A DNA stretch of 21,930 nucleotides from a virus: IMG/VR virus record IMGVR_UViG_3300033552_000059, positions 1-21,930 of that record, one strand, 5' to 3'. Under the pieces are notes generated by a model. The model saw only the letters and a program-made list of their open reading frames with translations. It searched no databases and had not been told where the DNA came from. The position numbers were made by a program, and so were the translations under genes. The first letter of the stretch is position 1. Every line of letters starts with the position of its first letter. Of the stretch, positions 1,493 through 19,354 are shown in pieces.

Positions 1493-2320
1493 TTATTCAA
1501 TTGTAACTTTATTAGATGATCTAATAAACAAATATCCTTTAGAATTACAATAACAGTATCTTTTAGATTCAAATTGTAATTGAGAAAGACTATATTTGTC
1601 TATTTTTAAATTAGTGCATATATCATCTCTCTTTTCAATTTTAAGAAGTCCTTTTGCTTGGAGTTCCTTTAATTTTTTCCACCCAGAACTCTTAGATTTG
1701 TAACCTAATAATTTAGATGCTAGTTGAGAAGATATTGTAATATCGTAATTAATTGAGGAATTTGTTAAATTTTTTACATCATTATTTGCAACGGCTCGCT
1801 GTACTTGACTATTCATTTCGTTATAATTATTGTATTTTTTAGATTCAATTTTTCTAACTTTACGAATAATGCTCTTGCTAGTTTTTTCTGTGCAGCCGTA
1901 TTTTTGCAAAACATGATGTTTGTAAACTATAAATTCCTGCTGTTTTAAATTACGTGAAAATTCTATTTGTGCAGCTATTGCTAGAGGATCAGCTGAAGGT
2001 ACTTTAAATACTATCAAATTATCATCATCTTTACTAAAGCCGAACATTTTAAAAATTTTATCGTAACTGTTTAATATTAAATCGCCTTTATCATTTTTAT
2101 AACTAAAACCTTTATTTGTCAGAGAATTTATTTTACGATATGCAGTAATTCTAGAACACTCTAATGACTTCATTACATATACTATAATATTTTTTTTGAA
2201 AATATTCCCAGTAACTGTAATAGATTTTAATTTTAAATATGTTTCTAATTCATCAGAAGATTTTGCAATTTGCACTTTCTTTAACAAACCTTCACATATT
2301 TTAACATTTGATATTGGCAT
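1493..2320 (-). CDS. DNA-binding protein with two helix-turn-helix-like segments (275 aa)
   Basis: A basic, Lys-rich protein with two probable winged-helix or HTH segments. The first is around residues 50-75 (VMKSLECSRITAYRKINSL, where SRITAYRKI resembles a recognition helix). The second is around 195-230 (ISSQLASKLLGYKSKSSGWK followed by a KGLLKIEKR wing-like strand). Two winged helices in about 275 residues is the layout of several replication initiators and plasmid or phage DNA-binding proteins, but no diagnostic motif is visible, so transcription regulator remains possible. It is transcribed toward the kinase gene. The palindromes just downstream of its stop (1424-1486) could be its sites. 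Start chosen as the first ATG of the open frame; it ends in TAA. Confidence 0.75.
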   Translation of the reverse strand: MPISNVKICEGLLKKVQIAKSSDELETYLKLKSITVTGNIFKKNIIVYVMKSLECSRITAYRKINSLTNKGFSYKNDKGDLILNSYDKIFKMFGFSKDDDNLIVFKVPSADPLAIAAQIEFSRNLKQQEFIVYKHHVLQKYGCTEKTSKSIIRKVRKIESKKYNNYNEMNSQVQRAVANNDVKNLTNSSINYDITISSQLASKLLGYKSKSSGWKKLKELQAKGLLKIEKRDDICTNLKIDKYSLSQLQFESKRYCYCNSKGYLFIRSSNKVTIE

Positions 2321-6644: not shown

Positions 6645-7769
6645 ATGATTTGGTTTACATTATTAATACCAATATTAACAATTATTATTCTATTATGTTT
6701 TTATAGAAAAGATGTTAATATTTTAGAATACTCTATTGTACTTGTACCTAGCTTACTATTTATATTAGCAATGAATTACATTTTTGTAACTTCAAGAGTA
6801 CAAGATACAGAATATTTAGGATCATATGTAGTTAGTATTAAATATTATGAACCATGGAATGAATACATCCATAAAACATGTTCATATACTACATGTACAG
6901 GTTATGGTAAACACAGACATTGTACAACACATTATAGGGATTGTTCATATATTAAAAACCATAGAGAATATTGGGCAATGATCGATAATAATCATAATGA
7001 AATTGAAATTAGTAAATCTTATTATGATTATTTACAAAATTCATATCAAAAACCTAAAGTATTTGTTGATATGAATAGACATTATCATTCATATGACGGA
7101 GACTGTTATCAAACCGATTGGCCAAAGACTATACAAACTACAAAATCTATTACTAGAGAAAATACATATGAAAATAAGATACAGTGTTCTCATAGTTTAT
7201 TTAAAATAGAGGATTTAAATGAAAGTGAAATTAAAAAATGGAAAGTTTATAATTATCCTGACATTAAGGATTATGATCAAAAAACTTTGTTAGGAATAAC
7301 TTTAGTAGATTCAATTGAAAATAAATTTAAATATATTAATAGTGTATATGCAACACAATTTAAAATAAAAACATTTGTTGCAGTCTTTAAAAATATGCCT
7401 TTAAAATCTGCATATAAACAAAGATCACATTGGGAAGGTATAAATAAAAATGAATTTCTCATTTGTGTAGGTACAGATTCAGTTACAAATAAAATAACTT
7501 GGATTAAATGTTTTTCTTGGATGAAAAAGCCAACATTAGAAAAGAATATTGAATCATTAATAGATAATCAAAATTTAACATTTAATGATATAGCAAATGA
7601 ATTATTAAAAACCATACCATCTCAATGGAAAAGAAGAGATTTTGTAGATTTCGATTATTTAAAAATTGAAATAACATCAAATCAATTAACAATTCTTATG
7701 ATATTACTTTTATTTTATAATATAGGAATTTCTATTTTAGTAATTAAAAAAGATATTTCATTTAATTAA
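6645..7769 (+). CDS. Cys-rich multi-pass membrane protein, 374 aa
   Basis: Two N-terminal TM helices (about 3-20 and 30-48) and one C-terminal TM helix (about 348-368, LTILMILLLFYNIGISILVI) bracket a soluble domain of about 300 residues. That domain opens with a Cys/His cluster (C79, C84, C93, C100 with several His) and has further Cys in GDCYQ and IQCSHS, so disulfides or metal binding are likely. The central region contains WNEYIHK, YWAMIDNNHNEIEIS and a long beta-rich part. No enzyme motif recognised. The domain is probably extracytoplasmic. It is the last gene of the plus-strand run and ends 1 bp before the left arm of the bidirectional terminator. Confidence 0.8.
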   Translation: MIWFTLLIPILTIIILLCFYRKDVNILEYSIVLVPSLLFILAMNYIFVTSRVQDTEYLGSYVVSIKYYEPWNEYIHKTCSYTTCTGYGKHRHCTTHYRDCSYIKNHREYWAMIDNNHNEIEISKSYYDYLQNSYQKPKVFVDMNRHYHSYDGDCYQTDWPKTIQTTKSITRENTYENKIQCSHSLFKIEDLNESEIKKWKVYNYPDIKDYDQKTLLGITLVDSIENKFKYINSVYATQFKIKTFVAVFKNMPLKSAYKQRSHWEGINKNEFLICVGTDSVTNKITWIKCFSWMKKPTLEKNIESLIDNQNLTFNDIANELLKTIPSQWKRRDFVDFDYLKIEITSNQLTILMILLLFYNIGISILVIKKDISFN

Positions 7770-18363: not shown

Positions 18364-18399
18364 GAAAAAGGGTCAAGACTCTAAGCCTTGCCCTTTTTC
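18364..18399 (-). terminator. Intrinsic terminator of the tRNA/tmRNA transcript
   Basis: On the minus strand a stem of GAAAAAGGG plus CAAG pairs with CTTG plus CCCTTTTTC (one bulged base at 18373), with a 9-nt loop, then a run of five U. It lies directly after the tag reading frame and ends the small-RNA operon. Confidence 0.85.
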
Positions 18400-18404
18400 G
18401 AAGA

Positions 18405-18461
18405 TTATGCTACAGCTAGTGTAGTTTTACCTTTTAGTACGCGAAATGATTCGTCGTTTGT
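18405..18461 (-). other. tmRNA tag-peptide reading frame
   Basis: From an 11-nt stretch (CAAACGACGAA) identical to the start of the E. coli ssrA tag, the frame reads (T)NDESFRVLKGKTTLAVA then TAA. E. coli reads (A)NDENYALAA. The -LAVA end is in the hydrophobic, Ala-terminal style recognised by ClpXP-type proteases. The resume codon is uncertain (ACA at 18461-18459 by alignment). The stretch CTACA/TGTAG (18410-18424) can form a small helix across the tag end, as helix P5 does in other tmRNAs. The tag is longer than most (about 18 aa) and ends in UAA, not UAG. Confidence 0.75.
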
Positions 18462-18598
18462 TTGTTGATATTCTCTCCTCATATCTAACTTATGCAGTCG
18501 AAATCCTTTCGGGCCCATAGTTGTTTATTTTTAGTGGACCCGCCGGTATCGAAACCGGTTGTTGCATACTTAGCATACAAGTGCTAACGAAATTATCG

Positions 18599-18670
18599 AG
18601 CTGACTTTGAGATTCGAACTCACGTATTACAGTTTTGCAAACTGTTGCCTAACCACTCGGCCACATCAGC
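18599..18670 (-). tRNA. tRNA-Cys (anticodon GCA)
   Basis: 72 nt. Anticodon stem ACAGT/ACTGT encloses TTGCAAA, giving GCA. D-arm GCC-AGTGGTTA-GGC type, T-loop TTCGAAT, acceptor GCTGA paired with TCAGC, and U73, the discriminator typical of tRNA-Cys. CCA is not encoded. Two G-A mismatches occur at the acceptor/T-stem junction (positions 7-66 and 49-65), a little unusual. It ends directly before the tmRNA acceptor piece, so the two are probably processed from one transcript. Confidence 0.88.
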
Positions 18671-18685
18671 TTATTATAAAATTAG

Positions 18686-18758
18686 TGAGATATCTCAGAT
18701 TCAAACTGAGGACTTCCGGTTTTAGAGACCAGAGTTTTTTCAACTAAACTAATATCCC
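18686..18758 (-). tRNA. Suppressor tRNA, anticodon CUA (reads UAG)
   Basis: 73 nt with complete cloverleaf: acceptor GGGATAT/ATATCTC (one G-U), D-stem GTTT/AAAC, anticodon stem CTGGT/ACCGG around loop CTCTAAA with U33, anticodon CTA at 18725-18723, variable loop AAGTC, T-stem CTCAG/CTGAG around TTTGAAT, A73. CCA not encoded. The normal tertiary pair G19-C56 is replaced by A19-U56, a compensating change that suggests the RNA is functional and not decayed. The anticodon arm is very close to bacterial tRNA-Trp (loop CTCCAAA), so one C-to-T change could have made it; A73 differs from the usual G73 of tRNA-Trp and tRNA-Gln, so the charging amino acid cannot be told from sequence. Confidence 0.88.
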
Positions 18759-18922: not shown

Positions 18923-19354
18923 TTATTCAATATTTTTGGTTAATTCTCTCTGTAAATCTTTTTCTTTAATACTTTCTCTTTTATCATAAAGCTTTTTACC
19001 TTTAGCTAAAGATAATTCAACTTTAATATAACCCTTATCATTTGCAAATATAGATGTTGCTACGAGAGTTAACCCTTTATCTAAAAGAGATTCTATTTTT
19101 TTTATTTCTTTTTTATTTAATAATAATTTACGTTCTCTATCAACTTGATGATTTAACATAGTTGAATTTTTATATTCAGGAATATGAGTCCCTTTTAAGA
19201 AAACTTCACCATTATTTACATATGCATAAGAATCTTGAAAATTAAATCCATTTTGAAAAATAGATTTAACTTCTGAACCTACCAGAACAATACCACAACT
19301 CCAAGTTTCTAATATTTGAAAGTTAAAGAATGCTTTTTTATTTGTATATCTCAT
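18923..19354 (-). CDS. smpB: SmpB, tmRNA-binding protein (143 aa)
   Basis: The whole SmpB pattern is present: N5-KKAFF and FQILETWSCGIVLVGSEVKS (oligonucleotide-binding barrel, residues 5-31), DSYAYVNNGEVFL (41-53), HIPEY, LNHQVDRERKLLLNKKEI (67-84), GLTLVATSIFANDKGYIKVE, LSLAKGKKLYDKRESIKEKD (115-133). SmpB binds the tRNA-like domain of tmRNA, mimics the missing anticodon arm and directs it to stalled ribosomes. The C-terminal tail that enters the mRNA channel is about four residues shorter than in E. coli, and the conserved Trp of that tail is Leu here. It starts 17 bp after a tRNA-like element and lies upstream of the suppressor tRNA, tRNA-Cys and tmRNA on the same strand, so protein and RNA partner are co-encoded. 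Confidence 0.95.
   Translation of the reverse strand: MRYTNKKAFFNFQILETWSCGIVLVGSEVKSIFQNGFNFQDSYAYVNNGEVFLKGTHIPEYKNSTMLNHQVDRERKLLLNKKEIKKIESLLDKGLTLVATSIFANDKGYIKVELSLAKGKKLYDKRESIKEKDLQRELTKNIE

Follow-up and report, generated by a model that had tools for sequence, protein, structure and literature searches.

Besides mitochondria, three main bacterial clades are known to have permuted tmRNA. The region 18598-18364 on the minus strand of the window, by which we mean the whole stretch analyzed (21,930 nt, IMG/VR virus record IMGVR_UViG_3300033552_000059), raises the question whether a phage carries such a gene here and where this gene might have come from. We put the probability at about 0.88 that a large T4-like phage, probably of a Bacteroidota host, has in this region a circularly permuted and reduced tmRNA gene whose product teams up with phage-encoded SmpB in a rescue system.

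Organization of the locus

Both strands of the region were examined, and every feature of a permuted tmRNA is on the minus strand. Along this strand, smpB is followed by a tRNA with a CUA anticodon, tRNA-Cys, the acceptor piece of the tmRNA, a spacer, the coding piece and a terminator. The acceptor half thus precedes the coding half, as the initial annotation had stated, with a spacer of exactly 18 nt (18534-18517). By this gene order the product is taken to be two-piece, with the intervening sequence (18517..18534) predicted to be removed during maturation.

The acceptor piece (18535..18598), delimited by sequence and fold, abuts tRNA-Cys (GCA; 18598..18670, ARAGORN) with its 5′ end. It comprises the 3′ strand of P2 in three parts (CTTGTAT, CTAA and TATGCA; 18563..18581), a T arm of 5 bp with a 6-nt loop (CCGGT-TTCGAT-ACCGG; 18543..18558), the 3′ strand of the acceptor stem (CGGGTCC; 18536..18542) and A73 at 18535. 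CCA is not encoded after this piece, the window having ACTA instead, and ACAA is found where the classical GGAC precedes the T stem. The coding piece (18364..18516) consists of GGGCCCG (18516-18510), a spacer, the D-like segment TTCGAC (part of TTTCGAC at 18503-18497), the 5′ strand of P2 (TGCATA, TTAG and ATATGAG; 18478..18496), the tag frame and an intrinsic terminator hairpin (18364..18398) closing the transcript. All seven positions of the acceptor stem pair, including G3-U70, so that the acceptor pairing, G3-U70, A73 and TTTCGAC are all present as first described. The same holds for the three-part P2 joining the halves, which forms 17 bp (7+4+6; 18581-18575/18484-18478, 18573-18570/18488-18485 and 18568-18563/18496-18491) in the minimum-energy fold.

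The tRNA with the CUA anticodon (18685..18758) would decode amber codons and is labeled tRNA-Pyl by ARAGORN. Despite this tRNA, the large structural genes of the window contain no in-frame TAG; TAG ends two genes, and the tmRNA tag ends with TAA. The stop codons in the window are TAA (21), TGA (3) and TAG (2). Amber recoding of the window genes was considered and rejected, since reading TAG as Q adds at most 5 codons to any large structural ORF.

Computational support for the tmRNA assignment

Folding of the precursor with RNAfold without constraints yielded the tmRNA architecture as minimum-energy structure. For the full 235 nt the fold has a z-score of -5.37, with none of 200 shuffled sequences reaching an energy as low. 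A signature composed of 7/7 acceptor pairs, 5/5 T-stem pairs, the T-loop motif and TT(C/T)GAC has a single match in the window and none in 3.29 Mb of first-order Markov sequence. Chance hairpins were rejected on the basis of the fold and this absence. A looser scan of loci from SmpB-bearing phages gave no further match combining 7/7 and 5/5 pairs.

The initial annotation had suggested scoring the region with the covariance models for permuted tmRNA. RF04321 (tmRNA_permuted) matches with 30.7 bits (E 9e-5; gathering score 47) and RF01851 with 25.5 bits (gathering score 70), the latter being the sole match among the clade-specific models RF01849-RF01851. The region therefore does score with tmRNA models, while no gathering score is reached. 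All tmRNA models listed in the open-threshold Rfam search are permuted ones. RF00023, the model for one-piece tmRNA, does not match, and the order of the acceptor strands is reversed relative to the one-piece form. At gathering scores, Rfam and also ARAGORN report only the two tRNAs and no tmRNA here, and annotation tools run with default settings miss this gene. The sub-threshold scores and the two adjacent tRNAs might also be expected of a chance arrangement or a decayed remnant of the tRNA cluster. This explanation is very improbable given that all helices are perfect and the terminator is in place, together with the fold statistics and the random-sequence result described above.

Tag reading frame and reduced architecture

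The tag frame (18405..18467) encodes (QQ)TNDESFRVLKGKTTLAVA, ends in LAVA and is closed by TAA (18407-18405). It has CAAACGACGAA in common with the E. coli ssrA tag, in agreement with the first reading of the locus. The resume codon is ambiguous: the upstream context (AAUAU) is better for CAA at 18467, whereas ACA at 18461 aligns with ANDE-type tags. Both candidates lack the usual G, which is a point against the tmRNA explanation. Two alternative frames, NKQTTNHFAY* and TNKRRIISRTKR*, were set aside because they do not have a degron-like end. A tag ending in LAVA* is also found in the crAss-like phage cr10_1 (GNNFVTDYTQLAVA), and related huge phages have tags that are long or end in AVA. Unusually long tags of 28 aa sharing a GK-VK(F/L)-A pattern were predicted by ARAGORN in three phage copies (L141, L154 and L160).

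PK1 can be dispensable in other tmRNAs. In the window, the tag begins 29-35 nt after TTCGAC and 10-17 nt after P2, which leaves no room for this pseudoknot. The TTCGAC-to-tag distance in phage copies of the alpha/beta/cyano type is 52-87 nt, mostly 64-68; the 49 nt obtained for L136 and L139 were counted from an internal TTCGAC, and L161, which is related to both, has 72 nt. A downstream pseudoknot is likewise absent in the window, where only the terminator follows the stop codon.

The associated smpB, the phage and its host

Just upstream of the tmRNA, with the two tRNAs in between, lies an intact smpB of 143 aa on the minus strand (18923..19354), which had been overlooked in the initial annotation. 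The assignment is based on PF01668 (169 bits) as well as NF003843 and TIGR00086, both above cut-off, and the protein can be aligned over its length with SmpB of solved structure. Among bacterial proteins, those nearest to it come mostly from Bacteroidota. In a tree calculated from few alignment columns it falls into a part made up of Bacteroidota and megaphages (94/89), beside two viral sequences (95/64). In the viral contig L065 (4299-5414), which has two further genes in common with the window, clpP is located directly upstream of smpB, a neighborhood that supports a role in tagging and degradation in this phage group.

The proposed T4-like nature of the phage is supported by a portal protein of the gp20 type (PF07230, 199 bits). 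In phage records, the portals closest to it belong to huge phages (LR756500, 44%), Lak phages of Prevotella, Tenacibaculum phages and PAU; in viral contigs the best match has 50% identity. A relative of 374 kb with a portal identity of 50% (G457) has its own SmpB and a one-piece tmRNA containing ATCGAC and the acceptor strand GGGACCG. The window has a GC content of 25%, and no Shine-Dalgarno sites are evident before its genes. The motif TAnnTTTG is located at -21 to -24 relative to the start codon of four genes, upstream of 2593, 4367, 20781 and 21308 (5 occurrences against ~2 expected), and is possibly a phage or Bacteroidota-type promoter. Taken together, the portal relatives, the missing Shine-Dalgarno sites, TAnnTTTG and the relatives and tree position of SmpB make a Bacteroidota host likely, so that the host suggested at first is retained as a probable one.

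Permuted and one-piece tmRNAs in phages and Bacteroidota

Permuted tmRNA in phages is already known. Two-piece forms account for 53 of 133 unique phage tmRNAs in one survey (PMC9004378), another lists 79 phage tmRNAs (PMC11915505), and huge phages with both tmRNA and SmpB have been described (PMC7162821). Scanning viral contigs with a pattern yielded 29 stretches, nearly all of them permuted genes in alpha/beta/cyano style. One-piece tmRNAs above threshold were detected in 19 of 47 records, most of them SmpB-bearing, and in 2 of 36 records with portal relatives. The 47 records also include L089, whose tmRNA is clearly permuted (63.8 bits, tag GNKTSYAMAA).

That Bacteroidota chromosomes carry the one-piece form held for the sampled genomes. 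RF04321 matched in only one of 395 Bacteroidota genomes (G281, locus L245), where the permuted tmRNA (1501-1774, minus strand) has tRNAs and short phage-like ORFs for neighbors; elsewhere G281 carries a one-piece tmRNA of the ordinary kind. A Bacteroidota host chromosome as direct origin was rejected on account of this single match within a phage-like tRNA cluster. Most of the fetched Bacteroidota one-piece tmRNAs have TTTGAC or ATTGAC, and TTCGAC is found in those of Ignavibacteria, Balneolaceae and Chlorobiales.

DNA searches starting from L245 and L089 led to permuted tmRNAs in the crAss-like phages cr53_1 (L266), cr60_1 (L268) and cr10_1 (L269) and in the cultured Chryseobacterium phage MA9V-3 (L270). 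Three of these copies are called tmRNA* by ARAGORN, and three score above gathering with RF04321. A tmRNA is named in GenBank for cr10_1, cr60_1 and MA9V-3 but not in the stretches of cr53_1 and cr56_1; a published description of permuted tmRNA in crAss-like phages or MA9V-3 was not found in the literature searched. In cr56_1 (NC_055890; L272, 6745-7500) the pieces are 601 nt apart, and an antisense endonuclease CDS (6763-7344) lies in and over the spacer. In three crAss-like phages (L267, L268 and L271) a RAGATH-20 RNA is located upstream of the tmRNA or of its coding piece.

The D motif and the tag of the Bacteroidota-phage copies are separated by 41-47 nt, CCA is not encoded where this was measured, and the copies of the crAss-like phages, MA9V-3, L089 and L245 are apparently PK1-less. 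G3-U70 and A73 are kept in all eight Bacteroidota-phage permuted genes compared. The proximal P2 is likewise paired in 8/8, i.e. in the window and seven other copies, with different bases. Pairs were counted in a hand-set register and then in a free register, as the MAFFT alignment had the window one base off in the stems. With the register left free, own pairs outnumber swapped ones (P ~6e-4, calculated over sequences that are partly related). A close relative was not found with narrow patterns, by DNA similarity in phage records or by related-locus searches, those with a thymidylate-kinase-like protein and with the single portal yielding nothing useful.

Origin of the window tmRNA

The evidence on the origin points both ways. 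One explanation is a transfer, in which a permuted tmRNA from Alphaproteobacteria, Betaproteobacteria or Cyanobacteria is the ancestor of the gene, which came in via a T4-like phage and was then reduced with loss of PK1 and CCA; we consider its chances somewhat below even. It is favored by TTCGAC, by the 6-nt T loop, which 8 of the 29 phage copies from the pattern scan share and the seven sampled permuted copies from Bacteroidota phages lack, and by the scores of two models. R2, built from 15 phage permuted tmRNAs of the proteobacterial/cyano type with the window excluded, gives the tRNA-like part of the window 44.9 bits (E 7e-9), whereas R1, representing the Bacteroidota-phage type, gives 29.0; the alphaproteobacterial tmRNA L244, held out of R2, behaves similarly (42.4 and 13.4 bits). 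The R2 score has to be read in light of a training set selected by the TTCGAC pattern, and MA9V-3, which is clearly of the Bacteroidota-phage type and has TTTCGAC, also reaches 46.7 bits with R2. R2 matches in the portal relatives G457 and G482 correspond to a one-piece tmRNA and ordinary tRNAs. The nearest single match (L150) comes from a T4-like phage with a gp32-like protein and has the TTCGAT loop, a short spacer and GAAAGG in common with the window. However, nucleotide similarity was not detected between the window tmRNA and any phage record with permuted tmRNA, and the one-piece gene of G457 speaks against a transfer as well.

The other explanation is an origin in place, i.e. permutation of a one-piece tmRNA within Bacteroidota-infecting phages, independent of the three classical lineages and either in the line of the window phage or shared with the crAss-like type. 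For the window we give this close to an even chance. In line with it, one-piece tmRNAs occur in the records with SmpB or portal relatives, and the window SmpB is placed among Bacteroidota and megaphages. Moreover, the copies from crAss-like phages, the Chryseobacterium phage, L089 and L245 mostly have TTTGAC, no CCA and no room for PK1, which makes at least one origin in place likely; with the Bacteroidota mark TTTGAC, those of L089, L245 and the crAss-like phages look like permutation within the Bacteroidota line. The window itself fits this type less well, with its TTCGAC, its 6-nt T loop, a spacer of 18 nt against 60-601 nt in the others, and the lowest R1 score of all permuted copies.

Proposed function

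The following steps are modeled on established knowledge of two-piece tmRNA (Caulobacter) and SmpB. A single transcript would run through both tRNAs and both tmRNA halves to the terminator (18398-18364). By analogy to known permuted tmRNAs, RNase P may cut before GGGCCCG (18516) and the 3′ end of the acceptor piece may be trimmed at A73 (18535). As CCA is not encoded, its addition by an enzyme is proposed. The 7-bp acceptor stem and the 17-bp P2 would hold the halves together, and G3-U70 would mark the RNA for alanine charging. Phage SmpB would then deliver it to stalled ribosomes, translation would resume on the tag frame, and the added peptide ending in LAVA may mark the chain for host (ClpXP-type) proteolysis. 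A complete rescue pair of this kind could keep ribosomes and amino acids available during infection.

The RNA might instead work without tagging, as a decoy for SmpB, EF-Tu or host proteases that would block trans-translation in the host. Its reduced structure without pseudoknots would be compatible with this, and there is a precedent in phage DS6A, whose CDS-less tmRNA-like gene is reported, in work cited in PMC11915505, to block host trans-translation. Since the tag frame is open and keeps its hydrophobic LAVA end and stop codon, and the phage supplies an intact SmpB, we regard a decoy as unlikely.

Returning to the tmRNA-SmpB rescue pair, we tentatively suggest, with the odds leaning against it, that permuted tmRNA evolved in Bacteroidota phages independently of the three classical lineages, and that its most reduced version is the one in the window, a two-piece RNA of ~200 nt that is free of pseudoknots and forms a private rescue system with phage SmpB. 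Permuted PK1-less copies in several unrelated groups of Bacteroidota phages, compared with one-piece genes on the sampled chromosomes, suggest phages as a further place of origin or spread of permuted tmRNA. A pseudoknot-free tmRNA with its own SmpB would also test how much of tmRNA trans-translation needs.

Comparison with known systems

The window tmRNA shares with the permuted forms of Alphaproteobacteria, Betaproteobacteria and Cyanobacteria (RF01849, RF01850 and RF01851, merged in RF04321) the gene order, the acceptor stem with G3-U70, A73, the T arm, TTCGAC, P2 and a tag frame with stop codon. It differs from them in lacking PK1, a downstream pseudoknot and an encoded CCA, and in its ACAA in place of GGAC, its 18-nt spacer and its sub-gathering scores. 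Like the window phage, Methylophilales phage Melnitz and Pelagibacter phage Mosig are T4-like myophages with permuted tmRNA (PMC9004378). Their two-piece tmRNAs have been linked to SAR11/alphaproteobacterial ssrA, with a glutamine riboswitch also reported (PMC9004378), whereas the window phage is megaphage-like and AT-rich and has its own smpB.

With cr53_1, cr56_1, cr60_1, cr10_1, MA9V-3, L089 and L245 the window has in common the lack of CCA, the missing room for PK1, a multi-part P2 and the Bacteroidota context, and their tags may end in LAVA as well. These copies have longer spacers, mostly TTTGAC (TTCGAC is found in MA9V-3 as in the window), a GGC or GGA resume codon, in most cases a 7-nt T loop, and conserved P2 loop motifs that the window does not have. 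Huge phages (PMC7162821; Lak, LR756501 and others) resemble the window phage in their phage-borne rescue pair and related SmpB and portal, while their tmRNAs, where found in the records, are one-piece. New in the window are the absence of room for PK1 and of an encoded CCA, the 6-nt T loop and the linked smpB, and this stripped-down form and its crAss-like relatives appear not to have been described before.
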